Origin: a virus
Virus record (IMG/VR): IMGVR_UViG_3300042691_027378
Span: 1-35,359 of that record
Strand: one strand, 5' to 3'
DNA length: 35,359 nt
The stretch's first letter is position 1; every line of letters starts with the position of its first letter. Under the pieces are notes generated by a model, which saw only the letters and a program-made list of their open reading frames with translations, ran no database searches and was not told where the DNA came from. A program made the translations under genes and the position numbers. This document shows positions 1 through 23,762 of this stretch, one piece after another.

Positions 1-540
1 TTTTACAAATAAAAACATAGTGATGCGCCAGCCATCTGTATGGTTCCATCCCGAGTGCGGAACTTGACCATTAAATATGATTGCCTCACCTACTTTGTTA
101 CCTGTGACCTGACCGTCAATTTCTAGTGCTAATAGACTAGGATCTTCACTGGGTATAAACACACCTACAACAATATTGTAAATTGAAGTTTCGGCATAGG
201 GTGGAAGATCATCGCTGTCAACATGATCGGGGATAGTAGAGTTAGGTCCTATAAAATTAAATAATGCTCGTTCAACACCCTGCATGTTTTGTAGATATTC
301 TACAACTGGTGCAAATTTGTCTTTAACAATTTCATTGATATGATCATTAGTTCCTACTTGATCATATATGTGTAAGACAAACCAATTAACATCATCTCGC
401 TGTTCTTGATCTTTTAAATCAATAACTTGATCTCTTAACTCAAACCAAGAATTAGCATCATTGTTAAAACATTCTCTAGCAATATCAGCTAGAGTTTTAA
501 TTTTATGATGATCTTTGTATTTTGTATTTTCAATTATCAT
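1..540 (-). CDS. Aspartyl/asparaginyl beta-hydroxylase-like 2OG-Fe(II) oxygenase, C-terminus cut by the window edge
   Basis: The frame opens at an ATG at 540 and runs 180 codons to base 1 without a stop, so the 3' end lies outside the window. The protein shows the double-stranded beta-helix signature of 2-oxoglutarate/Fe(II) dioxygenases: H106-V-D108 (in IPDHVDSDD), the distal iron ligand H162 in VPHSGWNH, and R172 ten residues later, the usual 2OG-carboxylate ligand. The spacing H-x3-N-x5-R is shared with many other oxygenases in this window. The start codon overlaps the stop of the upstream glycosyltransferase-like gene (ATGA, 537-540), so it is the last visible gene of the minus-strand unit that begins at 5322. 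Family members hydroxylate protein or small-molecule substrates. The substrate here is unknown. Confidence 0.8.
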   Translation of the reverse strand, partial: MIIENTKYKDHHKIKTLADIARECFNNDANSWFELRDQVIDLKDQEQRDDVNWFVLHIYDQVGTNDHINEIVKDKFAPVVEYLQNMQGVERALFNFIGPNSTIPDHVDSDDLPPYAETSIYNIVVGVFIPSEDPSLLALEIDGQVTGNKVGEAIIFNGQVPHSGWNHTDGWRITMFLFVK

Positions 541-1712
541 GGTACTCTAAATAAATGTGTGAATCCCTTTTGCCTAAACCATTTTTTAATATCAGCCTCT
601 GGTATGAGGAAGTCATGTTTAAGACGATCTAACATTATTTCATTTTCGTCAACAATCTGCATAAATCTTAAAAAATTATGATCTATATCTTTTTGTATGC
701 TTCTTTGATTTTCTCTTGCATGGTCTAGGAAATATACCGTGCCTGAAACTACAGCATCCATTCTAGCATCATAGTTATCAATGTAAGCATACCCAGGATT
801 ACTCAAATATTTATCTACTGTTTTTAAGCCACGGTCTTGAAGATAATTATATCTATCTACACTATCAGCTAGAATAATAGGATGTCTATTAACCACAGCT
901 CTCCAAGTTTTTTCAGTAAGGAATTTACTGTCAGTGGCGGGATAGTAAACGTGACCTTCTGATATAATACTTAAACTAGTATTCCAAAATATATTTGGAT
1001 CCATCCAATTTGGGTCTTTAATAAACTCTTGTTCGTTGATCGAACCTTCTGCCCAGTCTTTGCCCGTAAGCCTACTGTACTCTTTAGCATCCTTGTATAA
1101 GTTATCAACAGATTGATCACAAAAATTAATAAAATGATCGTACTCTGCATCGGAGTATCTTTTTAAATAATCTCTACACCAAGTTTTGTCTTCATCTGTC
1201 CATGGCGGAAAGAAACTCCATGCTCCTCTTGATAAAACTTTTTTATCGTATAGTTTACTTAACAGTCCTATTCTATTTGGCCTTGATGGAACTCCTGTAA
1301 GGAACAAGAATCTTCCGGCTGCAGAGTTCCATGGCAGCGTTTGATCTAATCGATCTTTATAGCTTTCCCAAACACAGCCTACACTATAATCCCAAAATAA
1401 AATTTGATAACCTAAATTTCTTTTGTTTAATTCTCTTTGATATTGTTCGCAGATTCCTGCTATAAGGTATAGTTTTTTTACACCCTTTGATCTAGCATAT
1501 TGTTCTACTCTGCCCAACAGCGAATAAAAGTCTTCGTTGTTTTTATATAAGAAGCCCTCACAGAGCAATAGACCAAATATACTATCAACAGGCGCTGCAC
1601 GGTCTATGTCTTTGTAAATTAATTCTTCTAGTGTAGCATAAATTTTATTTTGATCTTGCGTTTCGTCGTTAGTATACCACAGTTCAAAATTAATTAGTTC
1701 TGCTTTTTTCAT
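537..1712 (-). CDS. Phage glycosyltransferase-like protein (GT10-like C-terminal motif)
   Basis: 391 residues. Residues about 136-160 contain FLTGVPSRPNRIGLLSKLYD, a segment typical of uncharacterised marine-phage glycosyltransferase-like proteins. Residues 264-281 read FLTEKTWRAVVNRHPIIL, followed by a YLQDRGLKT segment, which resembles the donor-binding tail of GT10-type fucosyltransferases (TEKxxxA...P-hydrophobic, then a 'Y-L-x-x-x-G' loop). The same pattern occurs in the 445-residue protein at 5364-6701, so the two are probably distant paralogs. It overlaps both neighbours by 4 nt, giving translational coupling with two 2OG-oxygenase genes. A role in transferring a sugar is inferred from this C-terminal motif only. 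Donor and acceptor are unknown, and no membrane segment or signal peptide is evident. Confidence 0.55.
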   Translation of the reverse strand: MKKAELINFELWYTNDETQDQNKIYATLEELIYKDIDRAAPVDSIFGLLLCEGFLYKNNEDFYSLLGRVEQYARSKGVKKLYLIAGICEQYQRELNKRNLGYQILFWDYSVGCVWESYKDRLDQTLPWNSAAGRFLFLTGVPSRPNRIGLLSKLYDKKVLSRGAWSFFPPWTDEDKTWCRDYLKRYSDAEYDHFINFCDQSVDNLYKDAKEYSRLTGKDWAEGSINEQEFIKDPNWMDPNIFWNTSLSIISEGHVYYPATDSKFLTEKTWRAVVNRHPIILADSVDRYNYLQDRGLKTVDKYLSNPGYAYIDNYDARMDAVVSGTVYFLDHARENQRSIQKDIDHNFLRFMQIVDENEIMLDRLKHDFLIPEADIKKWFRQKGFTHLFRVP

Positions 1713-2212
1713 TCTATATACCCTGTTATTTGTAAAGTATAACGATCTACATGTCCTAGGTTAGCAGCCATGTGCGGAGTCTTACCAGTCCAAAAGAACC
1801 AATCCCCTGCCCGCCATTTTATGTGACTGTCATTGGCAACTTCTGAAATATGTCCAGGAGACCAATCTTCTAAAAATACTATTATCCTACAAACATCTGA
1901 GATTGTAAGAGAAGGATTAGTTTTAAGAAAGTAAGCATATTGATCCGAATGATAAGGCAGTATCATTCCAGGCAACATTTTTTGTATTGCAAACAGAGGC
2001 GATCTTATCCTAAAGAAACATTTTTTAAAATATTCTTCTTTATCTAGATCGATGCCTTTGTGTATGTGTGCTATTATTGATTCGTGCTTGTATCTATCGT
2101 AATCTTGATTATCTACAAACTGAAATCCTGTAAGAGGAGCGTAATGAGCTTCGTAGGCTAAATCTCTATGCCAATTGTTAAATTGACTTAACTCTACGTT
2201 GCCCTGTATCAT
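1709..2212 (-). CDS. Small 2OG-Fe(II) oxygenase (H-x3-N-x5-R type)
   Basis: 167 residues. The iron site is visible as H88-S-D90 in LPYHSDQY and distal H147 in TPHMAANLGHVDR, with N151 and R157 at the conserved +4 and +10 positions after the distal histidine. The C-terminus ends in the strand LQITGYIE, closely matching the ends of the proteins at 13325-13822 and 6694-7293, which marks them as one paralogous family. It overlaps its neighbours by 4 nt on each side. The oxygenase call is firm from the motifs. The substrate is not known, but the setting between a glycosyltransferase-like protein and a sporadic-carbohydrate-cluster fusion suggests sugar- or surface-related chemistry. Confidence 0.78.
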   Translation of the reverse strand: MIQGNVELSQFNNWHRDLAYEAHYAPLTGFQFVDNQDYDRYKHESIIAHIHKGIDLDKEEYFKKCFFRIRSPLFAIQKMLPGMILPYHSDQYAYFLKTNPSLTISDVCRIIVFLEDWSPGHISEVANDSHIKWRAGDWFFWTGKTPHMAANLGHVDRYTLQITGYIE

Positions 2213-3342
2213 TCACTCCAACCTTCTTCCCAGACTTGAGGACCTTTCTTTGGTACAGCAAAATTAAGATACATTTCAACTTTTTCTAAATCATCTTTTG
2301 ATTTAAGACTTACTAGCTCGTTGGCAAAATGTAATTCAACACCGTTGTCTAATGCTATTTGTAATAATTCACTGCGTCTTACTGGATCATCTGTAAGGCT
2401 GTACATACTACAGAGAACAATACCATCAGGTCTTTCTTTAATGTAGTGTTCTAATGCTGGTTGCCAATCCATGTGTTCATTTTCAAATTCGTAACTGGTA
2501 TAGGCAATCTTATTCTTTTGACAGTAGGGTTCTATAATAGCACGTTGCATAGGCAAAGGAATGTCTTTGCTAAACTTACTATTCCATCCTGCGTAGGTAA
2601 TAAAGCTTTTGCCTGTGTAGTCCATAGTCTGTGCAACTTCATGGTCGCCAGGCAGACGCATGAATCCGCCAGGGAGTCTACGACCCCACTCTTCACCTTC
2701 TAACAAAATACGCATGTCAAGACTTACTCTAGTATAGCCTTCTTCGTTGTTTACATTACCGTGTAGATGTTCTTGAAAGAACAAATGACTTTGTCCTGGC
2801 TTTAATGTTACTGGCCAAGCGTGTTTTAAACATTCATCTTCGAACTTCTCTAGACTCCATTTCTCTGCTAGTACACGTTTAGTAATTTCTCTGCTTATGT
2901 CGAGATCCATTATCCACATAGTATTAGTACCGCGAGCTTCTGTAAACGGAGTCCATATAGTTCTACAGCCTCGGCCATTGCCTACAAAGATACCTTGATG
3001 GAATTGCAATCTACGACCAACTTTAGCCTGCTGGGGAATAACTACTCGCAAAGTGCCTTGACGTTGAATTAAAAATCTTCTATTATCAACTCTAGATGGA
3101 ACATATTCCTGTACAAACTTATCAAACAGTTCCATAAAATCTTTTCTACTGCAAGCATTCTGTACATGTTGACTCATTTTTACTATTTCTGAAGGTGTTA
3201 ATACTTCGTGAATAGTTTCTAATTCTTTTACTTTAGGAGCAACTTCCTGGACAACACTCAGCGCCCAAGCAGGCCAATTATATTTTTCAAGATCGTACTC
3301 TAAAGTATTGTTGTTCCAATGCTCGTGTATCTTGCTTAACAT
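2209..3342 (-). CDS. Fusion of sporadic carbohydrate cluster 2OG-oxygenase domain and LIC12192-like domain
   Basis: 377 residues with two parts. Residues about 85-232 resemble the 'sporadic carbohydrate cluster 2OG-Fe(II) oxygenase' family: FHQG at 114-117, IWTPFTEARGTNTMWIMD at 129-146, and HLHGNVNNEEGYTRVSLDMR at 192-211 with distal H194 and R205. Residues about 241-362 resemble the LIC12192 family (YITxxGW, VxxAIIEPYC-like helix, RPDGIVLCSMYSL at 304-316, ELHFANE at 336-342). As I know these families they are usually separate neighbouring genes, so the fusion is unusual. The proximal metal motif reads H115-Q-G117, where the relatives I recall have H-x-D, so the carboxylate ligand appears to be missing. 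The start has a good ribosome site (AGGAAAGG) just upstream. It lies 14 nt downstream of the amidinotransferase gene. Confidence 0.72.
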   Translation of the reverse strand: MLSKIHEHWNNNTLEYDLEKYNWPAWALSVVQEVAPKVKELETIHEVLTPSEIVKMSQHVQNACSRKDFMELFDKFVQEYVPSRVDNRRFLIQRQGTLRVVIPQQAKVGRRLQFHQGIFVGNGRGCRTIWTPFTEARGTNTMWIMDLDISREITKRVLAEKWSLEKFEDECLKHAWPVTLKPGQSHLFFQEHLHGNVNNEEGYTRVSLDMRILLEGEEWGRRLPGGFMRLPGDHEVAQTMDYTGKSFITYAGWNSKFSKDIPLPMQRAIIEPYCQKNKIAYTSYEFENEHMDWQPALEHYIKERPDGIVLCSMYSLTDDPVRRSELLQIALDNGVELHFANELVSLKSKDDLEKVEMYLNFAVPKKGPQVWEEGWSE

Positions 3343-3356
3343 ATCCTTTCCTCTTA

Positions 3357-4412
3357 TTAAAAATAACTTTCTAATGTTCCTTTACGTTTAACATCTAATG
3401 TCTGGCAATGGAATCCACCACTCATTGTTCTAGCCTGGCGGCAAGGTAATCCAATAGTATCAATTCCGTACTTCTTTAGTTCTTTCATCATAGGACCTTG
3501 ATTCTCATCTATGATTACTAAATTTTGATTTACACTTAACATGTTCATGCCAATCCACGGACTGCAAGGAGGAATACCTCCAGGCAAGTTAGCCGGAGGA
3601 GTGACCATCATCTCAGGAGTAACCCAAATCTTATCCCAGTCTTTAAAAATTTGTGGGTAATGGTCAGGGCGAAGTCTGGCAGCGTTAAAGGCTACTAATC
3701 CTGGACGCAAAGGTATAACAGTTGAATCAAAGTGTGCAAAGAAATAGAACCCTTCTGCTAGATGTAATTTGTAACCTCTAGGCTCTAATATACTCTTAAG
3801 CCACTTGTATCCCCAAAGTGTTCCGCTGTTAGAAACTTGATACAATAGATCTCTACCTAGTCGTACAATATTAGGAGCTTCAAATACTATTTCCTTATCT
3901 AATGTAGTAGGAGATTTTAAATCTGCTGTTTGATATAGATCATCAAGCAGAATTGGTTTAGGACCGTTGATCCATTCTACGCCTTCTTCTACTTGCTGAT
4001 AGAGATAATCGTAATAGGCTCGGGTTTCGTACTGTCTAGCTCGCATTGGGCTAGGAGTTTCAACAATGATATTGTCTAATGGCAATAGCAAGTCTCTAGG
4101 GCAGAATGTATACCAGCCTGTAGTAGTCCAGTCAGGACTTGAAAACTCTTTACGATGATCAACGCTGATAGGTCTATGAACTTTTACACCTAGACTTTTA
4201 AGTGTGTCTGCTAGGATTTGCAAGTCTTCATTACACTCATCAATAATACGTTGTTCGTGTGGGCCTTGAAGATGTTTTAGTTCTTCAAGACTGTATTCAG
4301 CATAGCTAAATGCCTGCACACTTTTATTCATAGTAGGCAATACAGAGTTGTCTGCTGTACCTACAATAATCTCTTCTAATTGATCCCAATCATTATGTGA
4401 ACTAACTGCCAT
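3357..4412 (-). CDS. Glycine amidinotransferase-like protein (AGAT/StrB1 family)
   Basis: 351 residues, full length for the family, which moves an amidino group from arginine to an amine acceptor (glycine in creatine-type synthesis, aminocyclitols in streptomycin-type synthesis). The catalytic histidine region AHFDSTVIPLRPG places H227 and D229, and the nucleophile is C336 in GGFHCQTLDVKRKGT near the C-terminus. These positions match the spacing of the Asp-His-Cys triad known from StrB1. The triad Asp position appears to be N181 (EAPNIVRLGRD), which I recall in several marine relatives. An AAGGAT ribosome site lies upstream of the ATG, and the gene overlaps the PLP-enzyme gene by 11 nt. The acceptor is unknown. 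With a PLP enzyme and carbohydrate-cluster domains adjacent, an amino-sugar or small amino compound is plausible. Confidence 0.85.
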   Translation of the reverse strand: MAVSSHNDWDQLEEIIVGTADNSVLPTMNKSVQAFSYAEYSLEELKHLQGPHEQRIIDECNEDLQILADTLKSLGVKVHRPISVDHRKEFSSPDWTTTGWYTFCPRDLLLPLDNIIVETPSPMRARQYETRAYYDYLYQQVEEGVEWINGPKPILLDDLYQTADLKSPTTLDKEIVFEAPNIVRLGRDLLYQVSNSGTLWGYKWLKSILEPRGYKLHLAEGFYFFAHFDSTVIPLRPGLVAFNAARLRPDHYPQIFKDWDKIWVTPEMMVTPPANLPGGIPPCSPWIGMNMLSVNQNLVIIDENQGPMMKELKKYGIDTIGLPCRQARTMSGGFHCQTLDVKRKGTLESYF

Positions 4413-5322
4413 TTTTTATCCTTTGTAATTCTTCTTTAAATTCATCTGTTGTTAAATGTAAGTAACGATGTAGACCTAGTCTGTTCTTATCGCCACCTCT
4501 ACTATAAGCTTTCCACTCTTCTCCACCAAGACCAAACAAAATAGTTTGACTAGGCTCAACTTCTAAAATATTACAAAACTCAATCTGTTGATTCCTGTAT
4601 TTGTTTACAATGTAATCAGAGTCGTATAATTTTAAAAATTCTAATCCTAATCTTGCACCAATCCTATTAGTATAGTTACTTTTGTTATAGACAAACAATA
4701 CATCGTCATCGTCTACTCTTGTAAAACGCATACCAACTCTTGCATGAGCTAGCGGAAAAATCTTACTTAACCCAAAAGTAATGTCAGTTATACATTTATA
4801 GGAAAAATCAAAATCAATTCCGTGACTTACAGAGTAGTACGCACAGTCTACTAATACAGGAACATTAAGTTCTTCACAGACTTTAAGTAAGGTATCGTGA
4901 CTAACATGTTTGTTTCCAGTATCACTAAACGGTAGACTTATCACTACTGCGTCATTGGCTTCTATATCTAGATCTTCAATGAACTTCCAATTAGGCCAGC
5001 TGTTGCGCCAGGCCAATTGATGATACATATATTCTGATCTAAAACATCTAAATCTTCTAGTGTTATTTTTAATATAGAATTTGTCAAATGCTTCACTGGT
5101 GCCCTGCGAAAATACCACATGCGGGAATTCGTCTAGTGCTTTAATAGTGTGCAATTTGGATTCGGTGATCCATTTTTTATAGTAGTTACAGAAATCGTAT
5201 ACTACTTTTTCGTCAGCAAGTACGTCAGTTAACGATAGATTGATACTGTCCAATGTTTCCATTGTACAGGAATCTCGTAAGTAGGACGAATTGCCGAAAG
5301 GAAGTTGATATCTTGTGCTCAT
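4402..5322 (-). CDS. PLP-dependent aminotransferase, fold type I, short form
   Basis: 306 residues. Visible cofactor-site features are GTSEA at 74-78 (phosphate-binding loop), D159 in LVDCAYYS (pyridine-nitrogen ligand), and K187 in FGLSKIFPLAHARVGMR, the expected Schiff-base lysine followed by R195. This is the class I/II aminotransferase order. It is about 80-100 residues shorter than typical members, mainly in the C-terminal small domain. It is the first gene of a minus-strand unit: a GCTAAATA late-promoter-like octamer sits 13 nt upstream of its ATG, in the 41-nt gap after 5364. It overlaps the amidinotransferase gene by 11 nt, suggesting the two act in sequence on one amino compound (inference). 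Substrates are unknown, and a lyase or decarboxylase role cannot be excluded. Confidence 0.75.
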   Translation of the reverse strand: MSTRYQLPFGNSSYLRDSCTMETLDSINLSLTDVLADEKVVYDFCNYYKKWITESKLHTIKALDEFPHVVFSQGTSEAFDKFYIKNNTRRFRCFRSEYMYHQLAWRNSWPNWKFIEDLDIEANDAVVISLPFSDTGNKHVSHDTLLKVCEELNVPVLVDCAYYSVSHGIDFDFSYKCITDITFGLSKIFPLAHARVGMRFTRVDDDDVLFVYNKSNYTNRIGARLGLEFLKLYDSDYIVNKYRNQQIEFCNILEVEPSQTILFGLGGEEWKAYSRGGDKNRLGLHRYLHLTTDEFKEELQRIKNGS

Positions 5323-5335
5323 AGTTTACCCCGAG

Positions 5336-5343
5336 TATTTAGC
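5336..5343 (-). promoter_or_regulatory. T4-late-like promoter element GCTAAATA
   Basis: Read on the minus strand, the octamer is GCTAAATA, 13 nt before the ATG at 5322. It lies in the only sizeable gap (5323-5363) within the minus-strand block and matches the element found at the other operon starts in this window. The match to the T4 late element (TATAAATA) is 6 of 8. Confidence 0.45.
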
Positions 5344-5363
5344 GGGTACTTTCTATGGCAACC

Positions 5364-6701
5364 TCAATTTACGATTTGCATAGTACCAAGATTAGCCACT
5401 TGGTAAAAATTGTGTTCAATTATTGGCTTCATTTGATTATATAAGTTCTGCATCTGTTCGAGTGATAGTTTATCTAAATCTTCTATAAGTTTAAGAACAG
5501 CCAAAAGACGTTGTTCATGATCCTCAATTTGATCGTAGCTTTCGTCCCAAAAATCGCTAAATGTTTTAAAACCTAATTTTTGTAAGTATTCTAAACTGTG
5601 CGGGCCTGCTACTAGAATAAAAGGTCTACCAGATTTGATTGCGTTAACTGTTTTCTCTCCTACTACAGCTGATGGTCTAAAAAATTCTGATTCAGAAATT
5701 ACTGAACAAAATGCTTCTGCATATTTTTCTATAGGAATATCTAGACCCATTGGACAAAAATGCAAATTATCAAACTCGTAGTTAGGTATACTGTTTCTTC
5801 CTCTGTAAACTTCTGTAATATCAAATGTAAGATCTACAACTAACGGGGAATTATTTTCAATATATTTGTTGCCTTCTTTTAATGCTTGCCAAATATCAGG
5901 ATTGGTATTTTGCCATTGGGTAATATCAAAGTATGTTTCGCATTTTTCTATAGGTAAAGAATATGCCCATGAACATGAAGCATTTCTAAAACAAAGAAAT
6001 GTTTGTACAATCTGTCTATAATTTGTATAACGCCATGCTAAAGAAATAAATTTTTTCTTTATTACTGTTGAACTAAAATAATTTGTCCAAGTTTCATTAT
6101 ACCCAAAACTATCTGTTGTCTCCCCAACTAGGGTCGGTAAGAAAAAGTTTTTTGTATAAATTTTAAATTTAGGATAATGGCGTTGAGCATATTTGCTATT
6201 GTTGTAATCAGTAACATAACAGGTTACATTGGTAAGATTATTATTATCTATAAGTGCATTAATACTGTCAAATTCAAAACATCTTAAATTATCTAAATTT
6301 TTAGGTGTACTAGGAAATTCGTAATCTATATTGTTATCTTCTATATCAAGATTAATATAAAGTTTCTTTGCTTCAGGACCTTGGTAGAATAACGAAACTT
6401 CGTAGATATAGATATCTAGTCCTTGTTGATTCAACATATTTCTAGTTTCGTCATCAAATATTAATTTTTCAAATTGAATTATATTTCCATCTACGTGAAC
6501 TAGCAAAATATTTCGTTTTTCTTGATATAATGAAGTTTTAGCAAACTGTGATTCAAAATAGTCAAAGAATGTATATTCGTAAGTAAGCTCTGTTCGTTCA
6601 AAGACAGAAAGGTCTTCTAAAATTATTTTTGAAACACCGTTAAATCTTTGATATACAATACCAAAAAATTTATTGTTATGTGTAGTTAAACTGCTAGACA
6701 T
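5364..6701 (-). CDS. Phage glycosyltransferase-like protein (GT10-like C-terminal motif)
   Basis: 445 residues. The C-terminal third (about 335-392) carries FFRPSAVVGEKTVNAIKSGR, then PFILVAGPHSLEYLQKLGFK and a TFSDFWDESYD segment. This is the arrangement seen at the donor-binding end of GT10-like glycosyltransferases in marine phages: E-K, a selectable Ala/Ser helix, 'PFIL', then 'LGFKTF'. A preceding segment KFISLAWRYTNYRQ (218-231) resembles the 'Fl.lnr..R.hR' motif of the same group. The N-terminal half is not recognised. It overlaps the oxygenase gene at 6694 by 8 nt and is the last gene of the unit starting at 9665. Together with 537-1712 it forms a paralogous pair. Sugar transfer is inferred, and no substrate can be given. 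Confidence 0.58.
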   Translation of the reverse strand: MSSSLTTHNNKFFGIVYQRFNGVSKIILEDLSVFERTELTYEYTFFDYFESQFAKTSLYQEKRNILLVHVDGNIIQFEKLIFDDETRNMLNQQGLDIYIYEVSLFYQGPEAKKLYINLDIEDNNIDYEFPSTPKNLDNLRCFEFDSINALIDNNNLTNVTCYVTDYNNSKYAQRHYPKFKIYTKNFFLPTLVGETTDSFGYNETWTNYFSSTVIKKKFISLAWRYTNYRQIVQTFLCFRNASCSWAYSLPIEKCETYFDITQWQNTNPDIWQALKEGNKYIENNSPLVVDLTFDITEVYRGRNSIPNYEFDNLHFCPMGLDIPIEKYAEAFCSVISESEFFRPSAVVGEKTVNAIKSGRPFILVAGPHSLEYLQKLGFKTFSDFWDESYDQIEDHEQRLLAVLKLIEDLDKLSLEQMQNLYNQMKPIIEHNFYQVANLGTMQIVN

Positions 6702-7293
6702 CTAGATATGTTACTTGAAAGCAAACTAAATTTGAAAGACCAAAGTTTCCAGCACCGTGCCACATATCGCCCTGCCATGTGTAGACGTCTCCCTTTTTCC
6801 AATGGCCAAATACATGATCGCCTAGCTGTATAGTTTGACCAAAATTCCAATCATTGATCATAATAGCCGCACGTTTAACTTTACCGTAATCAGCCATATC
6901 TATATTTTGAAACTTAACAAATGCGGAAAAACTATCGTAGTGCCACATAAGGCAGCAGCCAGGTGTTAACTTTAAGAAAGTACAATGGTGTTTTGTATGT
7001 GCAAACTTATCTGCAAAACGTTTGATATCTCCTTGTAAATTCGGAGTTATGTCCATGTAGTGTCTAGTGCATTCTTTGGTTACACCGTGTTCAATATACA
7101 GATCTTCTAACGCTATCTTTTTTTCTGTAGAAAAAACTTCCCAAGCATCGTCTTTAGGAACTTCATCAATCATGAAAGTTTCTTTCCAATTAGCTCCTAA
7201 TTCGTTTTCAGTTACTGTAATATCAAAATGATATTTTTCATATTTTCCGTCACGCCAGTTAATAAAACTTTGTAATTGTTTTATATCACTCAT
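6694..7293 (-). CDS. 2OG-Fe(II) oxygenase-like protein lacking the usual 2OG-binding arginine
   Basis: 199 residues. The iron-site motif is H118-Y-D120 in MWHYDSF, and the distal histidine is H179 in DMWHGAGNFG, followed by N183 at +4. At +10, where its paralogs at 1709 and 13325 carry Arg, this protein has L189 (GLSNLVCFQVT). The C-terminal strand CFQVTYLDV still matches the family. It is coupled by an 8-nt overlap to the upstream radical SAM gene at 7286-8233, an arrangement repeated by 13325/13819. The loss of the Arg may mean that another residue anchors the cosubstrate or that the cosubstrate has changed. Confidence 0.72.
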   Translation of the reverse strand: MSDIKQLQSFINWRDGKYEKYHFDITVTENELGANWKETFMIDEVPKDDAWEVFSTEKKIALEDLYIEHGVTKECTRHYMDITPNLQGDIKRFADKFAHTKHHCTFLKLTPGCCLMWHYDSFSAFVKFQNIDMADYGKVKRAAIMINDWNFGQTIQLGDHVFGHWKKGDVYTWQGDMWHGAGNFGLSNLVCFQVTYLDV

Positions 7294-8233
7294 GTTCTGT
7301 TTCCTTAAGGTGATTTATTATATACTGTTTATTATCAATATCAACAAAATTTAAATGTTCTATCATCGCATTTTTATCATCAATTGATAAATTTTTTATA
7401 TCTAATCTTGGGGGATAGGTTAAAATGTTTGTAGTCCATGGATAAGAGTGTTCTTTGATCCAAGAACTTACATTAGACAAATCAAACCAATTATTAGTAT
7501 GTATTGTAGTGTGTATTGAAAATTTAAAGGAATTGACAGTAAGTTGATTTAAAAAATCTTCTATACTTTTCCAATTACTACCGGATCTCACGCGGTCATT
7601 GACTTCTTTATATCCATCAACACTTACAATAAATTCTACTAATTTAAATTGTTTTAACAAGTTTATTGTATCTGCACTTAAAAGAAAAGTTCCATTAGTA
7701 TTATAAGTTACTGAAACATTTTGTTTATTAACTATTTTTTGAAGGAACCTAATGTGCCTATTTGTCATTAGCGGCTCTCCTCCTAAAAATAAAACTTTGT
7801 TAACTGTTGGTGGAATTGTTTCTATCTCAGTGGTTGCTGTAATGTAAATTTTTTTTGGCTGTCCTGGATTATTCTTTTCAGCCCAAGAACTGCTAAACTC
7901 GTCAAAGCATCCGTCGCAGGTTAAATTACATATGTTGTCAAAACCTACTTCAAAGTATTCCAGTGCAACAGTATCACTTGTATACTCTGAATTAAAACGT
8001 TGACGTAGACTTTGCTTACCTAGGCTTTCTTCATAGTAGCATTTTTCGCAGCCTTTAATAGGAATCCCTTTAAAACTCATTTCTCTTAAATTTTGATACT
8101 CTGGTAAATTTAATACGTTGTTTAAATCTCCGTTAAATTTACCCACTGGTTCTTTGAAACGGCAACAGGGAAATATTCTATTATCTCCTCTTAAGTTTGT
8201 ATGTTTCCAAAAAGCAGCGCAGTATGAGTTCAT
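7286..8233 (-). CDS. Radical SAM protein with N-terminal Twitch-like Cys cluster
   Basis: 315 residues. An N-terminal cysteine-rich segment (C5 in MNSYCAAFW, C23-C24 in FPCC, C62 and C65 in GCEKCYYEE, then a QSLRQR tail) precedes the radical SAM core. The core 4Fe-4S motif is C102-x3-C106-x2-C109 (CNLTCDGC), with the SAM-binding GGEP at 151-154. Such proteins cleave S-adenosylmethionine to a 5'-deoxyadenosyl radical, and the extra Cys cluster probably holds an auxiliary cluster. Its start (MNSYC) and layout closely match the protein at 13819-14970. Each is followed by a small oxygenase, so the two gene pairs look like copies of one cassette. The substrate is unknown. Confidence 0.85.
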   Translation of the reverse strand: MNSYCAAFWKHTNLRGDNRIFPCCRFKEPVGKFNGDLNNVLNLPEYQNLREMSFKGIPIKGCEKCYYEESLGKQSLRQRFNSEYTSDTVALEYFEVGFDNICNLTCDGCFDEFSSSWAEKNNPGQPKKIYITATTEIETIPPTVNKVLFLGGEPLMTNRHIRFLQKIVNKQNVSVTYNTNGTFLLSADTINLLKQFKLVEFIVSVDGYKEVNDRVRSGSNWKSIEDFLNQLTVNSFKFSIHTTIHTNNWFDLSNVSSWIKEHSYPWTTNILTYPPRLDIKNLSIDDKNAMIEHLNFVDIDNKQYIINHLKETEHE

Positions 8234-9129
8234 AGCAGATCAGATTTAGTTTTTTCGGCAGGTGCTATATGAACAAGCATTTCTTGATGATTAGCAGGAC
8301 ACAGTTTACATTGTTCAATACTGTTAGGTAAATTTTTTAAAAATTCATCAATTACATTTTGATCAGCCCAGGGATCTAATCCTACTGTACGATCTAGTAT
8401 TTCTTTAGACGCTGGATCTATTGCAAACTGTTCTTTTAACTGTTGACCAACACCTGCTACTAAACATTTATAAAGTATACCTTCAACTAGATAGTGACAT
8501 TCTTTCCATGCACATGTTTCATGTGCTTGTTCTTGATCGCTATCGTGGAAATATATTATTTTATTTTCAATCCTGTTTATAGCACTTTCTGCAAAGATCC
8601 ATGAGAAATTCATAATAACTATATTTTGTCCTTGATAAGAAAAAAACAACTGATCCTGTGGCCAATTATTATTAATCATTTGACATTCGTTTTTGATATT
8701 GATTTCTTCAAAGTATTCTTTAAGGATGACATTCTCTACAACATCAATTATTTCGTTTTTCTCTCTAGAATCATGGACACTTATTTCTAATATTATTCCT
8801 GCCTTTAATAACTTTTTAATTGTGGAAGCTTTGGCTAACAGAGTATCTTTGCTTACTCCTGTAACAAGTCTAAAATCCTTGTGATCTTTCCAAATTTCTT
8901 TTAAGCCTAATGCCCAGTCTTCTACCTGGGGGTGCAATAAAGGTTCCCCGCCCATGATGCTAAATTCTTCAACATCTAATAACTCATGCCACTTGGTTGC
9001 GGCGTCTTTGTTATTTTCCCACTTAAGATGATTTTTAAACTTGTAGTTGTTAAACGTAGAACATTCTTTACAAGTTTTAGGACATACGTTTGTAATATAA
9101 TATGATAAAAATTTTATTGGGTGGCGCAT
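8230..9129 (-). CDS. Radical SAM protein with C-terminal Cys residues
   Basis: 299 residues. The core motif appears immediately, C16-x3-C20-x2-C23 (CPKTCKEC), followed by MGGEPLLHPQVE with GGEP at 60-63. The C-terminal third has further cysteines in AWKECHY, LYKCLV and EQCKLCPANHQ, consistent with an auxiliary SPASM/Twitch-type cluster. It lacks the N-terminal Cys-rich segment of the gene 3' of it at 7286. It overlaps that gene by 4 nt and the zinc-protein gene by 16 nt. I could not link it to a characterised radical SAM enzyme. It is not an obvious QueE, since the cysteine spacing and the C-terminal extension differ. Confidence 0.82.
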   Translation of the reverse strand: MRHPIKFLSYYITNVCPKTCKECSTFNNYKFKNHLKWENNKDAATKWHELLDVEEFSIMGGEPLLHPQVEDWALGLKEIWKDHKDFRLVTGVSKDTLLAKASTIKKLLKAGIILEISVHDSREKNEIIDVVENVILKEYFEEINIKNECQMINNNWPQDQLFFSYQGQNIVIMNFSWIFAESAINRIENKIIYFHDSDQEQAHETCAWKECHYLVEGILYKCLVAGVGQQLKEQFAIDPASKEILDRTVGLDPWADQNVIDEFLKNLPNSIEQCKLCPANHQEMLVHIAPAEKTKSDLL

Positions 9130-12139: not shown

Positions 12140-13328
12140 TATAGCGTTTTGTTTTGTAGATAATCTGCACAACGTAAAAGAAGATTGGGTCAAAGAAATA
12201 ATTAAAAATGTTTCTGACTTTACCATCTCTAATGTAAACAACAAAGGATTTGATTTATATCAAGGCTTTGATGAAGACTCACTGCTCAACGAAGTTGCCA
12301 AGTTAAACTATGATCACGCTGTGGTATTTACTACTGGCACAGAGTTTATTAACGGCAGCAGTTTTTTTGATCAAGTACGTAGTTTAGTAGAACAAGATTA
12401 TTTTGTAGCAGGACACATACTAGACAGGGGTGATGCATATTACGAACTACATCATCAGTGTTATGTTATTAATTTGAAATATTATAAAAAATTAGAAATG
12501 CCAATAATAGGAAAACAACAATTGGGATCTAAACACTCTCAAGAAATTCCTTGGCGTAGTCGTGAAAACTGGCACGATGATTATACTCCAAAAACAATTA
12601 GTGGTGGAGATCAAATTAGAGAATATAATCACAAGTGTCACGGATGGAATATACTAAAACAGGCATTTGATCAAGACTTTCCTGTATTAGTTTTTGATGA
12701 AAACATACGCAACAATAAAAAACATTATTACCCTGAATCAAGTGAAGATTTTTATAAAAATTTATCTTGGTTATATTATAGACAAAACTTTTGCCTTACA
12801 GAATTTGTACATACAGCGAACACTGAAAAGGTAAACTTTCCGCCTAGACAACGATATGATCAAATTATAACTCCTGCCAGTGGACTTTGGTTTATGCCTT
12901 TTTTAAAAAATAAAACAGGCAAGGTAATAATGTATGATTACAATCAAAAATCTTTAGACTACTGGAAAGAAAATATGCCCAAGGATATTTCCTGCGAGTT
13001 TGTGTTGTGCGATCTTTACAGCGGTATAAACTTCTTTGAAAAAATAGACAAACAGGCACTTACTCTGTTTAACTTGTCTAACATTTTTAATTACGAAGGA
13101 ACTGTAGCGTTTTATAATTTAAAATATAGAAACTATAAAGAAAATCAAATACTAGATCAAATAGAAAACAACTTACCTAACGCAGAAATTAATTTTACTT
13201 CTAGGGCTAGTACAGGATTTCACTTCAATAATCATTATCAGTATTTTAGTAAAGTAAATTTAATCAAAAGAGTCGACCTCACAGAATTAAAAAAGCCAAC
13301 TTGGCATATCAATTCAGATTGGATTTAA
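12105..13328 (+). CDS. Two-part protein: glycosyltransferase-like N-terminus and methyltransferase-like C-terminus
   Basis: I chose the ATG at 12105 (407 residues). A TTG at 12081 is possible but lies deeper in the upstream gene and has no better ribosome site. Residues about 65-135 (DHAVVFTTGTEFINGSSFF, then DYFVAGHILDRGD and CYVINLKYYKKL) resemble the core of GT2-like proteins that lack the usual DxD, a layout seen in marine phage hypotheticals. Residues about 258-345 (GLWFMPFLKNKTGKVIMYDY with YWKEN and FVLCDLYSG) resemble a Rossmann methyltransferase-like fold with a degenerate glycine motif. Neither catalytic function can be established. It ends the plus-strand unit and converges with the gene at 13325 with a 4-nt overlap. 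Confidence 0.55.
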   Translation: MIKFPAIETASNIAFCFVDNLHNVKEDWVKEIIKNVSDFTISNVNNKGFDLYQGFDEDSLLNEVAKLNYDHAVVFTTGTEFINGSSFFDQVRSLVEQDYFVAGHILDRGDAYYELHHQCYVINLKYYKKLEMPIIGKQQLGSKHSQEIPWRSRENWHDDYTPKTISGGDQIREYNHKCHGWNILKQAFDQDFPVLVFDENIRNNKKHYYPESSEDFYKNLSWLYYRQNFCLTEFVHTANTEKVNFPPRQRYDQIITPASGLWFMPFLKNKTGKVIMYDYNQKSLDYWKENMPKDISCEFVLCDLYSGINFFEKIDKQALTLFNLSNIFNYEGTVAFYNLKYRNYKENQILDQIENNLPNAEINFTSRASTGFHFNNHYQYFSKVNLIKRVDLTELKKPTWHINSDWI

Positions 13329-13822
13329 TTTACGTATTCTGTTACTTGTAACACTATTCTAGGAATATGTCCTATGTTGGCTGCACCGTGTAAGTCAGTC
13401 GAGTCGATGTAAGTATAAACATCGCCTGCCTTGTAGTTTGTGATAACCTGATCCCTATACATAAAGATATGCCCGGGATGATAGTCCTGTAATGGTATCC
13501 AATATCTGTTACAGGATCTTTCGTGTGTATAAGGATCAGTATGCATAGGCATGTACTGTCCGGGCAGTAATTTTGTTATCCACCAATGTACATCTCCTGT
13601 ACACCACGGCGGTGATATAGATATGTTTAGATCTTTTTCTTCGTATACCCACCAATTTATTGCTGATAGGTCATACCCTGCCTCTTTATATTTTTTATAT
13701 TCAGCTGATTCAACAGCAGTAGCAGCTGGCCAATCTCTAGGTCTAGCTTGACCAACTCTAGTTAACACTAGATGTTCCCATAACGGGTCAACCCAACTAT
13801 AAAAATTACCTTTATAAATCAT
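13325..13822 (-). CDS. Small 2OG-Fe(II) oxygenase (H-x3-N-x5-R type)
   Basis: 165 residues. H94-T-D96 lies in MPMHTDPYTH, the distal H145 in DLHGAANIGHIPR, with N149 and R155 in the conserved positions, and the C-terminal strand LQVTEYVN matches the proteins at 1709 and 6694. The middle motif YKAGDVYTYID parallels KKGDVYTWQGD in the 6694 protein. It is coupled by 4 nt to the radical SAM gene at 13819, giving the same gene order as 7286 then 6694. All cofactor residues are intact, so it is expected to be an active dioxygenase. The substrate is unknown, but the radical SAM product is the obvious candidate. Confidence 0.8.
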   Translation of the reverse strand: MIYKGNFYSWVDPLWEHLVLTRVGQARPRDWPAATAVESAEYKKYKEAGYDLSAINWWVYEEKDLNISISPPWCTGDVHWWITKLLPGQYMPMHTDPYTHERSCNRYWIPLQDYHPGHIFMYRDQVITNYKAGDVYTYIDSTDLHGAANIGHIPRIVLQVTEYVN

Positions 13823-14970
13823 TTGTTTAAAGAATTAATATGTTTAATAAAAAAAGTTTTACTATCAACTTTTGGATTTATTTTTTTATAGTTGTCAATG
13901 TAGTCGTTTAACAGTTGGTTAGGACAAATTTCATTACGCATATTATCTAAAGATTCGTGAAAGTTTATAAAGTGTGAAAATTCTTCAGAACCTGTTTGTT
14001 TAAGAGCATCTCTCAGATGCTCGTAACGATCTCCCCAATCCTCCATTAAATCTAATAAAGTTTTTTTATAATCACTGGGTAAGTTTATTATAGATGCATG
14101 GGTTGGATATTCTAATAATTTGATCATCCAGTGTGCTTTTGGGAACTGTTCTAAAATTAATTTCTCAATATTTTTTAATTCATTTATATTATAAACAGAC
14201 GCAGTAGTAATAATTTGAAATGTCACATTATCTCTTAAATCACTAAACGAATAAAAATATTTTGCTGTTTCCAGAACTGTTGAAAAATTTGATCCGCTTC
14301 TAAAATAATCATTTAAATCGCCTACACCATCTATGCTTACAGCCACAGAAAGACTTTTAGAATTAAGCATAAATTTTAAAACATTGTCGTTTGGCTTAAC
14401 TGTACCATTTGTTATTAGTACAAAATTTATATTTTTTTCTAGCTGACGACTTGTTAGTAATGTTAAAAAATCTTCAACTTTTTTGCTATAAAGAGGTTCG
14501 CCTCCGGATATTTCAAGAAACTCTAAATTAGTAAATTGGTCTACATTTGACAACTCAAGTGAGCTATACTTTTTAGGACTGTATGTTGTTCCGTATAATT
14601 CTAATTCATCGTTGTACCACAGATGGCTAGCACCTGAATTACACCCTCGACATTTTAAATTACACAAATTATCGATGCATAAAAACAAATACTTTAACTT
14701 AACATCTGTAACATGGCCATATTCTCTCAATAAGATTTTTCTTTTAGATTCAATTCCATATTTTTCTAGCTGGTAGCACTGACTACAATTTTTTATCTCT
14801 TCCCCTGCTAACATTTTTTTTCTAATATCTTTAAACTCATCAGAATTAAGAACATCAGGAACATTTGAAAACTGCTGTGTAGATGCAATAGGATAATACC
14901 AGCAACAGGGCGAAATTCCGTCAGCAGTAATTTCAGCACTCATCCACGGAGCAGGGCAATAAGAATTCAT
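13819..14970 (-). CDS. Radical SAM protein with N-terminal Twitch-like Cys cluster
   Basis: 383 residues. The N-terminal Cys cluster has C5 in MNSYCPAPW, C22-C23 in SPCCWYY, and C62 and C65 in NCSQCYQLE. The radical SAM core has C103-x3-C107-x2-C110 (CNLKCRGC) and ISGGEPLYS with GGEP at 156-159. The opening residues and order match the protein at 7286-8233, and both are followed by a small oxygenase of the same subfamily. The start codon directly abuts the stop of the upstream oxygenase-like gene (14971). The family is typically called a twitch-domain radical SAM protein in marine phages. Its product is undefined. Confidence 0.86.
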   Translation of the reverse strand: MNSYCPAPWMSAEITADGISPCCWYYPIASTQQFSNVPDVLNSDEFKDIRKKMLAGEEIKNCSQCYQLEKYGIESKRKILLREYGHVTDVKLKYLFLCIDNLCNLKCRGCNSGASHLWYNDELELYGTTYSPKKYSSLELSNVDQFTNLEFLEISGGEPLYSKKVEDFLTLLTSRQLEKNINFVLITNGTVKPNDNVLKFMLNSKSLSVAVSIDGVGDLNDYFRSGSNFSTVLETAKYFYSFSDLRDNVTFQIITTASVYNINELKNIEKLILEQFPKAHWMIKLLEYPTHASIINLPSDYKKTLLDLMEDWGDRYEHLRDALKQTGSEEFSHFINFHESLDNMRNEICPNQLLNDYIDNYKKINPKVDSKTFFIKHINSLNK

Positions 14971-15786
14971 TTAATATTCCTTGAGATGTTCAATACCAAT
15001 AAGACTTCTAAACTCGGGAGTAAATTTGCAGTCTACACGTAGTCCGTATTCTTGTTCTAGGCTAGATTCTCCACCATGCCAGTCTTGATCATTCCACATG
15101 GCAGCATGACTATTGATGTAGTGTTTGTCCTGTGTGTCAGGATCCCATATATAGAAACCACGTTTAGTACGATATCTAATATGTATGAATTCATTGTTAT
15201 GTGGCGTGTAGTAGTCATTTTCAAACACACCATTTTTAGCATCTAGGTCTCTATGTTCAAATGCTTTGCCGTTATGATCACATAGGAAAAATATCACACG
15301 ACCAATGCGATCAATGATACCCTGTTCCTGTAGATTTTCTACCCAACGAACAACACCAGGAAAGAACTTGCTTTCTTCTGTCTTCTGACGAGCAGCATTG
15401 CGTTCATTCCAGTCGCCTTCATTCCATAGGAAATAATAGATATAAGGATCGTTGGCACCTAGCACACTTTTTAAATAGCGTGTGAATAAATTACGTTGTT
15501 TGTAGTCTTTAAAATCTGTAGGATAAATTTCTCGACCTTGAACTTTGATAGGATGCTCATCAGGCAACTTTTGATACTCGTCAAATGCTTTGTATATAGG
15601 TTTCCAGTTCCACTGATAGCTGCCCCTGCTTTGATCAAATCCTGGAGCCATCCAAGTTCCTTCTTTGGCATAGTCTCTAGCCAAAGCAAATCCTTTACAG
15701 ATTTCTGCGTGTAGATTTACAAACCCTTCTATGTCCAAAAATGGATCTAAATTAATATACGGCTTACCGCCAATTCCTTTAATCAT
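14971..15786 (-). CDS. Probable 2OG-Fe(II) oxygenase-like protein, divergent
   Basis: I start the gene at the ATG at 15786 (271 residues), not at an in-frame codon at 15888. The longer form would run into the divergent neighbour, and the ATG at 15786 sits exactly 5 nt behind a GATAAATA element. A possible iron site is H178-R-D180 in KAFEHRDLDAKN and H237 in DQDWHGGESS, with R250 downstream (YGLRVDCKF). The gap from histidine to arginine (13) differs from the +10 spacing of the other oxygenases here, so this is a more distant relative. It leads the minus-strand unit that also contains the 13819/13325 radical SAM-oxygenase pair. I would not exclude a non-enzymatic cupin-like protein. Confidence 0.6.
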   Translation of the reverse strand: MIKGIGGKPYINLDPFLDIEGFVNLHAEICKGFALARDYAKEGTWMAPGFDQSRGSYQWNWKPIYKAFDEYQKLPDEHPIKVQGREIYPTDFKDYKQRNLFTRYLKSVLGANDPYIYYFLWNEGDWNERNAARQKTEESKFFPGVVRWVENLQEQGIIDRIGRVIFFLCDHNGKAFEHRDLDAKNGVFENDYYTPHNNEFIHIRYRTKRGFYIWDPDTQDKHYINSHAAMWNDQDWHGGESSLEQEYGLRVDCKFTPEFRSLIGIEHLKEY

Positions 15787-15791
15787 GGCAA

Positions 15792-15799
15792 TATTTATC
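15792..15799 (-). promoter_or_regulatory. T4-late-like promoter element GATAAATA
   Basis: On the minus strand GATAAATA is followed by TTGCC and then the ATG at 15786. The 5-nt spacer is identical in length to those at 19429 and 19451, implying transcription start at or next to the A of ATG. No Shine-Dalgarno is present. Confidence 0.55.
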
Positions 15800-15800
15800 G

Positions 15801-15808
15801 CATAAGTA
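15801..15808 (+). promoter_or_regulatory. Weak late-promoter-like element CATAAGTA
   Basis: CATAAGTA differs at one position from the NNTAAATA pattern and lies 1 nt before the ATG at 15810, or 4 nt before a second in-frame ATG at 15813. If it is functional, the second ATG would be the better start. Kept as a weak candidate because the 23-nt divergent gap (15787-15809) offers no other plus-strand promoter. Confidence 0.25.
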
Positions 15809-15809
15809 C

Positions 15810-16508
15810 ATGATGAAAACTGAGTTTGAATACTACTACAATGATGTTCCTGGAAAAGGTCTGTGTAGAAATAATTTAATCTACACAAGTCTTATCAGCA
15901 ACAATAAGAAAGTCTTTTGTCAATGGTATCATAATGACACTGATTATCATCGAGGACAAAACCAAGTAGTTGATCCTGCGCTGATGGAGGAGAAATGGTT
16001 ACGGGAAGTTAATTATATTACACAAATGCGTAACGTGTACCCTAATCTAGTTCCAAAAATTCTTAATATAGATTTAGAAAGACGTAAACTATATTTAGAA
16101 ATTGACGGTGTAGATTTTTGGCAACTGGCAGGTCCGGACGTACAAGATTATGATAGTGTATTACCTGACTGGCGTGAACAGATGTTAGATATCTTTAAAG
16201 CACACAAGGCCTTGGGCATTTACAAATATAGTCTGCATCCCAGCAGTTACTTTGTAGTTAACGGGCAACTTAAAAGTATAAACTATTTTTTCTGCTATCG
16301 TGATCATGATCCTGCTATTAGTTTGCGTAGCGTACTGAGTCATATCAGTGAAGATAGGCAAGCAGATTTATTTCCTAAAATGGCTGCTATGGGCATAAAT
16401 GTAGACAAACCAACACCATTTAAAGATATACAGTTATTAGCATTTGAAAGTTTTAAAACAAACTTTCCGGCTGACTTTATGGACGAATGTAAAAAATTAT
16501 ATGTATAA
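15810..16508 (+). CDS. Kinase-fold (APH/RIO-like) protein with degenerate active site
   Basis: 232 residues. The order of a small kinase fold can be followed: a beta segment with KVFCQWY, an acidic helix EEKWLREVNYI (61-70), VPKILNIDLERRKLYLEI, then YKYSLHPSSYFVVNGQLKSI in place of the catalytic loop and metal-binding Asp region. The 234-residue protein at 32154 aligns with it along the whole length (KTFCKNYD at the same positions, and SIDWYG where this one has SINYFF). Here the lysine-like position is Q38 and the metal-Asp position is N158, and no HxD catalytic loop is present, so it looks like a pseudokinase or a binding protein. It leads the plus-strand unit and overlaps the GNAT-like gene by 8 nt. 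Confidence 0.5.
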   Translation: MMKTEFEYYYNDVPGKGLCRNNLIYTSLISNNKKVFCQWYHNDTDYHRGQNQVVDPALMEEKWLREVNYITQMRNVYPNLVPKILNIDLERRKLYLEIDGVDFWQLAGPDVQDYDSVLPDWREQMLDIFKAHKALGIYKYSLHPSSYFVVNGQLKSINYFFCYRDHDPAISLRSVLSHISEDRQADLFPKMAAMGINVDKPTPFKDIQLLAFESFKTNFPADFMDECKKLYV

Positions 16509-23014: not shown

Positions 23015-23143
23015 ATGAAAGGCTTGGTAATTGCATTTATTTTAGGAATGGTTGTGGCAACTGTTGGCTTGTCCGGCATTGCTCGCATCTTTGACAAAGG
23101 CATTGAAACCGTTAAAACACACAGTCAGGAGTTGGCAAAATGA
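23015..23143 (+). CDS. Small single-span membrane protein
   Basis: 42 residues from the ATG at 23015, preceded by an AGAGG ribosome site five bases upstream. One hydrophobic segment spans about residues 3-20 (LVIAFILGMVVATVG), followed by a short polar tail. It begins the unit expressed from the sigma70 promoter at 22955 and overlaps the lipoprotein gene (ATGA, 23140-23143). I recall similar tiny membrane proteins in marine T4-like phages. No function is known, and an envelope role with the two lipoprotein-like proteins that follow is likely. Confidence 0.6.
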   Translation: MKGLVIAFILGMVVATVGLSGIARIFDKGIETVKTHSQELAK

Positions 23144-23760
23144 AAAAGTTTATTCTTATTCCCATCGTTGCATCTTTGGCTGCATGTTCTACAGTCAAGA
23201 CAGTGAACCCCGATGCGGCAATTCGCAATCAAAAGTTATCTACTAACTTTACAGACGACAAAGTTAAAATTGAAACTGACTGCGTTTGGTACAAGCCTTG
23301 GAAAAGCGAATGCGATATTGTAGCTATCGAAGCTACTGCATCTACTTGGACCAATGGCGGAACTAGAGTTCAAGCGCAATCTGCCCGAGAAGTAGCTGAG
23401 ATGCAAGCTTTGGCTAAACTGGCTAGATTTATTAAAGAAGATGTCACTACTACTAGGGTAGTCGAAACTGTGGCCAAGCATATTGAAAAAGCCCAGGATC
23501 GAATCGCCAAAGGTGATTCTGGTGATTCTAGTATGACTGATAAAGAAGCCAAGGCTACTAATATCTCTACTAGAGAAAATGCCAACGATACTGCTCGAAC
23601 AGTTACTTCTACAGTCAAGACTAACTCGCAAGCAATTTTGCGAGGTTACTATGTCAAGGATAGTGGCCAGTCTGGTGATCAAGAAGTATATGTAACTGTT
23701 CGATGGGATCGCAATAGTGCCAGAGCTGCCGAAACACTTGGCAAACGCTTTAGTCGCTAA
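23140..23760 (+). CDS. Lipoprotein of the LPP20-like type
   Basis: 206 residues. A signal peptide with a lipobox, LAAC at 13-16, predicts lipid attachment at C16 and export through the Sec pathway and lipoprotein sorting. The mature part has an Ala-rich helix (SAREVAEMQALAKLARFI), reminiscent of LPP20 domains, and a Ser/Asp/Thr-rich linker (KGDSGDSSMTDKEAKATN). Composition differs from the neighbours: in the three 60-base rows I counted (23161, 23341, 23461), 29-32 bases are G or C, against 21 of 60 in a row at 22141. This hints at acquisition from a bacterial source. It overlaps the small membrane-protein gene by 4 nt. An outer-membrane role in the infected cell is inferred. Confidence 0.7.
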   Translation: MKKFILIPIVASLAACSTVKTVNPDAAIRNQKLSTNFTDDKVKIETDCVWYKPWKSECDIVAIEATASTWTNGGTRVQAQSAREVAEMQALAKLARFIKEDVTTTRVVETVAKHIEKAQDRIAKGDSGDSSMTDKEAKATNISTRENANDTARTVTSTVKTNSQAILRGYYVKDSGQSGDQEVYVTVRWDRNSARAAETLGKRFSR

Positions 23761-23762
23761 TC

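Follow-up and report, generated by a model that had tools for sequence, protein, structure and literature searches.

Viral genomes are rich in radical SAM and oxygenase genes whose use is unknown, and the DNA analysed here raises the question of what two pairs of such genes, each comprised of a radical SAM (rSAM) gene followed by a small oxygenase gene, may do for a virus, and whether the two pairs share a history. The stretch, 35,359 bp of an IMG/VR virus record (hereafter the window, its genes being named after their lower coordinate), is dense in enzyme genes: it encodes four N-Twitch rSAM proteins (7286, 13819, 20819 and 26478), three more radical SAM genes that Pfam recognises (8230, 24734 and 27853) and some ten oxygenase-like genes. 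Among the window neighbours, one gene encodes an NAD epimerase and another resembles a UDP-Glc/GDP-Man dehydrogenase. Gp23 and terminase are absent from the 35,359-bp window; related records carry Gp23 (G008, G010 and G016) and terminase, and the virus is therefore probably a bacterial virus, most likely T4-like.

Both pairs are located on the minus strand, as are the other window genes given below with coordinates, with the rSAM gene first, as the sequence-only reading had it; the coupling by 8 and 4 nt that it described corresponds to gene overlaps. At locus A, rSAM-A (7286..8233, 315 aa) overlaps the oxygenase gene 6694..7293 by 8 nt (7286-7293), while at locus B rSAM-B (13819..14970, 383 aa) overlaps the oxygenase gene 13325..13822 by 4 nt (13819-13822). 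Both rSAMs belong to the N-terminal Twitch family, membership being defined by a score above the curated cut-off of 170 bits of the NCBIfam model NF033640 (N_Twi_rSAM), against which they score 223 and 235 bits, respectively. They are 30-31% identical, display the CX3CX2C motif (CNLTCDGC and CNLKCRGC), and in the rSAM alignment C5, C23, C24, C62, C65, C102, C106 and C109, comprising the radical SAM motif and the N-terminal Twitch cysteines, are invariant. The MNSYC-[AP]-A start noted for the two proteins is present in both (MNSYCAAF and MNSYCPAP), but it is not specific to the pairs, being merely the beginning of the N-terminal Twitch motif common to the family, with variants in the window paralogues 20819 and 26478. 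Directly upstream of rSAM-A, a second radical SAM protein (8230..9129, 299 aa, 38 bits with Pfam Radical_SAM) has an N-Twitch match that is not above the cut-off; the compact cassette keeps this gene, as does phage S-SCSM2R.

The two oxygenases (199 aa for 6694, 165 aa for 13325) share the HxD...H iron triad, which is invariant in the alignment. The AlphaFold model of 6694 (pLDDT 84) displays, by Foldseek and VIA-align, the double-stranded beta-helix (DSBH) fold of Fe/2OG oxygenases, with Z scores of up to 11 against 2OG oxygenases and with AspH and proline hydroxylases among its best Foldseek matches. A search of 6694 against Pfam gave no match, and 13325 and the 1709-type oxygenase (1709..2212, 167 aa) score 18.9 and 18.4 bits against PF05118 (Asp_Arg_Hydrox), below the gathering cut-off of 22.6 bits; these three are thus assigned by sequence to a putative, more distant AspH-like group outside PF05118. 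The oxygenase truncated by the window end (1..540, profile match of 256 bits) is AspH-like and related to PF05118, its relative L020:6955 matching that family at E 3e-11. The placement of 6694 and 13325 in one subfamily was correct as to the superfamily of 2OG type (E 1.4e-6) but not as to the subfamily, since 1709 is nearer to 6694 (2.6e-10) and to 13325 (5e-15) than those two are to each other. Next to 1709 lies a 2OG-oxygenase-like protein of 377 aa (2209..3342), assigned by sequence inspection only and with no match in Pfam; its position beside a 1709-type oxygenase is conserved in G002, G005 and G007.

The difference of Leu versus Arg at the 2OG-binding position was confirmed at the residue ten positions after the distal His, where an ungapped motif alignment places Leu189 of 6694 and Arg155 of 13325 at the position of R735 in human AspH. 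This difference is subfamily-wide: a basic residue is found there in 51/51 of the 13325-type, 22/22 of the compact-cassette type and 11/11 aligned sequences of the 1709-type, the last with Arg in 1709 itself, compared with 0/19 of the 6694-type (Phe, Cys, Ile, Leu or Met) and 0/8 of the G008 type. The 30966- and 31586-types also have neither Arg nor Lys at this position (Y, Q or H). K59 is invariant in the 6694-type and unique to it, and could serve as a substitute basic residue for the 2OG C5 carboxylate. In human AspH, the R735Q substitution raises the Km for 2OG more than 60-fold. Without this Arg, human AspH can take hydrophobic 2-oxoacids in place of 2OG: the R735Q and R735W variants, but not the wild type, accept, for example, the 2-oxoacids that transamination of Val, Ile and Leu yields (PMC12816917). 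A PLP enzyme gene follows directly after most 6694-type genes, and its position together with the loss of the Arg suggests that this type may use a cosubstrate other than 2OG. The stricter proposal, that the 6694-type makes no use of 2-oxoglutarate and takes instead a hydrophobic 2-oxoacid supplied by the transaminase encoded next to it, which would couple the two reactions, transamination and oxidation, in one viral cassette, is tentative and rather unlikely to hold.

To follow the pairs beyond the window, IMG/VR was scanned with 7286, giving 39 viral loci. A tblastn search with the same protein at E 1e-5 matched no phage record. In GTDB genomes, a single rSAM-A match was found, on a phage-like contig of a Puniceispirillum MAG, which was taken as viral because it carries the rSAM-A cassette together with a gene that by inspection is phage tail-like. 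As a single-sequence query, 13819 returned identical copies only, and alignment searches were therefore used. The partners proved to be sorted strictly by type. Of 13 rSAM-A pairs, 12 have a 6694-type partner and the other has a partner of the related G008 type; the pairs of rSAM-B (n=10) and of rSAM-C (n=17, with the oxygenase upstream of rSAM-C) are all with the 13325-type. Relatives of 7286 were never found with a 13325-type oxygenase, nor relatives of 13819 with a 6694-type. In the rSAM tree, the A clade (SH-aLRT 100) is distinct from a clade of B plus C (97), within which B and C are each supported, and in the oxygenase tree the 6694-type (99) and the 13325-type form separate groups on opposite sides of a supported branch. 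The unrelated histories of the two gene families that would refute the sequence-only reading were not seen, because their type partitions match. At a finer scale, the pairs did not co-diverge more closely than other cassette genes do: partial Mantel tests initially returned r of 0.67 (A) and 0.65 (B) on sets mixing types, and this signal vanished on purer sets (A -0.11, p 0.68, n 10; B 0.15, p 0.24; C 0.33, p 0.05), so that co-divergence is not counted as evidence. The oxygenases paired with B and with C are intermixed in their tree, because one oxygenase serves both rSAMs, and rSAM-B and rSAM-C look like tandem duplicates that flank a single shared 13325-type oxygenase.

Whether the A and B pairs are themselves duplicated copies of one ancestral unit, as had been suggested from their common order, is neither supported nor rejected by the trees, and we consider it improbable. 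The gene order is indeed alike in both pairs, and AU tests do not reject a common group, either for the A rSAMs united with B/C (p 0.41) or for the 6694-type united with the 13325-type (p 0.55). Against this, the supported groups described above keep A apart from B/C and the 6694-type apart from the 13325-type, the operon partners differ between the two loci, the oxygenase is upstream of the rSAM in the C arrangement, and DNA similarity between the pairs is absent. A blastn comparison of the two units gave matches of 11-14 nt only, which rules out a recent duplication of the unit; internal repeats were sought within each unit and none were found.

The surroundings of the two pairs are distinct. 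Around 7286 and 6694, the minus-strand genes from 9665 to 1 mostly overlap or almost touch, in the order 9114 (unknown), 8230, 7286, 6694, 5364, 4402, 3357, 2209, 1709, 537 and 1-540, and comparison with other loci shows locus A (1-9129) to be an operon with a recurrent core of rSAM-A, AspH-like oxygenase, PLP enzyme and L-arginine amidinotransferase, usually together with a GT-B glycosyltransferase. No precursor peptide gene was seen beside the rSAM in the operon, where the overlapping genes leave no room for one; a precursor could be encoded at a distance. Across the 39 rSAM-A loci, five neighbours persist, namely rSAM 8230, the PLP enzyme, the amidinotransferase, the GT-like protein and an oxygenase of AspH-like type, the 6694 type itself being found in only part of them. 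Scanning IMG/VR with the amidinotransferase alone gave at least 530 viral stretches. Among 17 non-redundant amidinotransferase-anchored loci with 5 kb on each side, picked regardless of rSAM or oxygenase, 17 carry the PLP gene, 16 the oxygenase and 11 an N-Twitch rSAM, and the PLP gene adjoins the oxygenase or the amidinotransferase in most loci. G008 has an rSAM and an oxygenase, and no amidinotransferase or PLP gene was seen in 160 of its 169 kb. Many cassettes, including compact ones, adjoin tail-fibre genes, and a halogenase is located near some.

By the same kind of comparison, locus B (13325-15888) consists of a 2OG-like enzyme and an AspH-like oxygenase, with an optional rSAM-B upstream or rSAM-C downstream of the oxygenase. 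Gene 14971 (14971..15888; its true start is likely internal, giving 271 aa as in relatives) adjoins 13819 directly upstream with a gap of 0 nt and resembles a 2OG enzyme by motif (HxD...H...R), so that locus B reads oxygenase-rSAM-oxygenase. Across 76 loci found with the 13325-type oxygenase alone, the usual order is 14971, slot 1, oxygenase and slot 2. Slot 1 holds rSAM-B, a protein of 200-250 aa, a P4H-like oxygenase or nothing, and slot 2 rSAM-C, another protein or nothing; rSAM-B and rSAM-C can co-occur. In G002, the slot 1 protein is SGNH-like by inspection, and the oxygenase, 81% identical to 13325, is yet partnered by a downstream rSAM-C instead of rSAM-B. In 49 non-redundant loci, an N-Twitch rSAM is directly adjacent to the 13325-type oxygenase in 21, and 14971, a frequent neighbour, lies no more than three genes upstream of it in 32.

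In other viruses, both pairings are found again at frequencies above those given by within-locus shuffles. In the amidinotransferase-anchored adjacency set (28 loci dereplicated at 90%), an N-Twitch rSAM has the oxygenase as its direct same-strand neighbour in 8/16, compared with 2.7 expected when labels are shuffled within loci (p 0.001), and in the oxygenase-anchored set the corresponding figures are 24/64 and 10.7 (p 0.0005); the loci are not phylogenetically independent, and these p values are guides only. In those 8/16, the oxygenase is always downstream of the rSAM and overlaps it. The rSAM and the oxygenase thus belong together, and given the recurrence, the overlap and the strict matching of types, it is reasonable that a radical and an oxidative step would act on one substrate or pathway.

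What this substrate may be is indicated by the other operon genes. The amidinotransferase (3357..4412, 351 aa) has an invariant Asp-His-Cys catalytic triad (D188, H227 and C336), and its best solved relative is the inosamine-phosphate amidinotransferase StrB1 (1bwd, E 1.5e-85; 291 bits versus 196 for glycine amidinotransferase). Gene 4402 (4402..5322, 306 aa) encodes a putative PLP fold-type-I aminotransferase-like protein, an assignment made by motif alone (the SK lysine K187, D159 and R281 are conserved in its family); it scores 14.2 bits (E 0.026) against Aminotran_1_2 (PF00155), below the cut-off of 19.7 bits, and the family profile, one row of which (L081:19099-19100) was empty, found no match among solved structures in the PDB. 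Genes 5364 (5364..6701, 445 aa) and 537 (537..1712, 391 aa) encode glycosyltransferase-like proteins of one family, by profile and alignment, for which structure modelling predicts a GT-B fold. The top matches of the 537 model (AlphaFold, pLDDT 82) are GT-B enzymes with Z scores of 9.4-11.4, at Foldseek E values of just 0.01-0.07, including PimA, T4 BGT, PglA and TarM (Z 10.6-11.4), and among the matches listed nearly all are GT-B glycosyltransferases or UDP-GlcNAc 2-epimerases.

The triad and StrB1 match of the amidinotransferase, the GT-B fold and the gene string of phage S-SCSM2R favour a reading, to which we give an even chance, in which the cassette makes a guanidinylated, oxidised sugar-like decoration and attaches it to a surface or virion glycan; we infer its chemistry, step order and acceptor. 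The recurrence and adjacency of the core genes, the epimerase and dehydrogenase-like genes among the window neighbours, the tail-fibre genes beside many cassettes and the BtrN precedent also speak for it. The PLP enzyme would aminate a sugar-like or cyclitol-like acceptor, and the amidinotransferase would convert the new amine to a guanidine with arginine as donor. The Twitch rSAM, in the manner of BtrN acting on an aminocyclitol, would abstract a hydrogen to bring about a two-electron oxidation or a rearrangement. The AspH-like oxygenase would hydroxylate, and the GT-B enzyme would attach the product to a glycan of the host surface or the virion; locus B may perform radical and oxidative tailoring of a like kind on a different acceptor. 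Several observations weigh against this proposal: the 4402 PLP family matched no solved structure and is not the DegT family of S-SCSM2R, amidinotransferases and AspH-like enzymes act on amino acids and proteins too, rSAM-A did not match BtrN and has its Twitch at the other end, just 11 of the 17 amidinotransferase loci have an N-Twitch rSAM within 6 kb, and G008 pairs rSAM and oxygenase with neither amidinotransferase nor PLP gene in the 160 kb covered.

Hypermodification of viral DNA by these enzymes is very improbable. Base modification is known in phages and T4 beta-glucosyltransferase is found among the GT-B fold matches, but it is just one of many, and AspH-like oxygenases are not known to be of the TET/JBP type. 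Alternatively, the target might be a protein, with a tail fibre or adhesin the likeliest candidate, on which rSAM and oxygenase would install post-translational changes and the amidinotransferase would act on a side-chain amine. This would agree with peptides being frequent substrates of Twitch/SPASM rSAMs, with the hydroxylation of Asp/Asn in proteins by AspH and with the tail-fibre genes beside compact cassettes; we nevertheless hold it to be unlikely, as the overlapping operon genes leave no place for a precursor peptide gene, and the GT-B enzymes and the glycosyltransferase-rich S-SCSM2R operon suit glycans better. There is, similarly, little probability that the operon yields a small guanidino compound that diffuses and serves in infection like an antibiotic or as a signal: the amidinotransferase, PLP, rSAM and halogenase genes recall natural-product clusters, a halogenase is near some cassettes, and a halogenated amino-acid/sugar metabolite has been proposed for cyanophage clusters (PMC7824862), but the window contains no recognisable exporter, carrier protein or peptide synthetase, and S-SCSM2R is dominated by glycosyltransferases.

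The glycan decoration that we favour can be set against the closest known systems. The cultured Synechococcus phage S-SCSM2R (PQ898602) carries, mostly with 4-nt overlaps, genes for GT, GT25, GT, a DegT-type PLP enzyme, rSAM, GT, AspH-like oxygenase (E 1.6e-30), amidinotransferase (E 1e-105) and GT2, thus joining PLP enzyme, rSAM, oxygenase and amidinotransferase in one overlapping string with five glycosyltransferases. It differs in having an rSAM of the 8230 type and a DegT-like PLP enzyme unlike the 4402 family, and no N-Twitch rSAM-A was seen in the stretch examined. The Campylobacter phages CP220 and CPt10 (PMC2853527) have exchangeable clusters of five rSAMs beside a glycine/inosamine-type amidinotransferase, and CP220 has nucleotide-sugar transferase genes too. 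The presence of several rSAMs with an amidinotransferase resembles 7286, 8230 and 3357 in one operon, but the rSAMs are distant relatives, the amidinotransferase is 24-26% identical, and profiles found no AspH-like oxygenase there. Cyanophage halogenase/2OG clusters and pelagimyophage host recognition clusters (PMC7824862, PMC7029224) contain 2OG oxygenases, halogenase, sugar genes or rSAM cassettes, the pelagimyophage cassettes near tail-fibre genes (PMC7029224); the available passages of these papers do not describe an rSAM-oxygenase-PLP-amidinotransferase core or paired subfamilies. BtrN is likewise a Twitch rSAM, oxidising an aminocyclitol (PMC9012708), and StrB1 is the closest solved homologue of 3357; in contrast to their pathways, the Twitch domain of rSAM-A is N-terminal and not C-terminal, BtrN was not matched when rSAM-A was compared with the PDB, and the window yielded no recognisable set of cyclitol kinase or dehydrogenase genes. 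Human AspH shares the fold and the distal His with the oxygenases, but has two His in place of the HxD/H triad, and keeps the Arg that the 6694-type lacks.

Precedents are thus known in the CP220/CPt10, cyanophage and pelagimyophage clusters, and what appears to be new here is the rSAM-oxygenase-PLP-amidinotransferase core, for which a non-exhaustive literature search found no describing paper. Because this core is compact and recurrent, comprises defined genes whose subfamilies are partner-specific, and has a relative in culture, its product is testable, and the fixed loss of the 2OG-binding Arg in one subfamily poses a sharp question on natural enzymes with another cosubstrate.

The sole match to rSAM-A (the N-Twitch radical SAM family of window gene 7286) among the GTDB genomes was L360, on contig JADHOR010000039.1 of a Puniceispirillum MAG. 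A phage tail-like gene adjoins the cassette on this contig, which looks like a viral contig that was binned with a bacterium. In L012, L014 and L080, a gene for a cysteine-dioxygenase-like cupin (phrog_4786; 6929-7423 in L012 and 7773-8267 in L080) separates the rSAM-A gene from the 6694-type, AspH-like oxygenase gene. Tryptophan halogenase genes (phrog_2928), at 3426-5021 in L021 and at 9271-10794 in L038, are located near the compact cassette. The related T4-like record G008 (169 kb; L086-L088) carries an unusually large radical SAM array, with 14 matches to the N-Twitch model NF033640 when matches of any strength are counted.

Within the window, the 2OG-like oxygenase gene directly upstream of rSAM-B 13819 was called at 14971-15888, with a TTG start that runs into the divergent gene 15810; because its relatives begin at an internal Met (271 aa), the true gene is probably shorter. 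Three AspH-like oxygenase paralogues (30409, 30966 and 31586) are arranged in tandem at 30409-32221, a trio that is kept in the related viral record G002 and partly kept in G008 and G009, and the position expected to hold the 2OG-binding Arg is occupied by Tyr, Gln or His in the 30966- and 31586-types. A lipoprotein-like gene followed by a weakly LPP20/FlgT-like one (23140-24728) appears out of place amid the enzyme genes of this phage.
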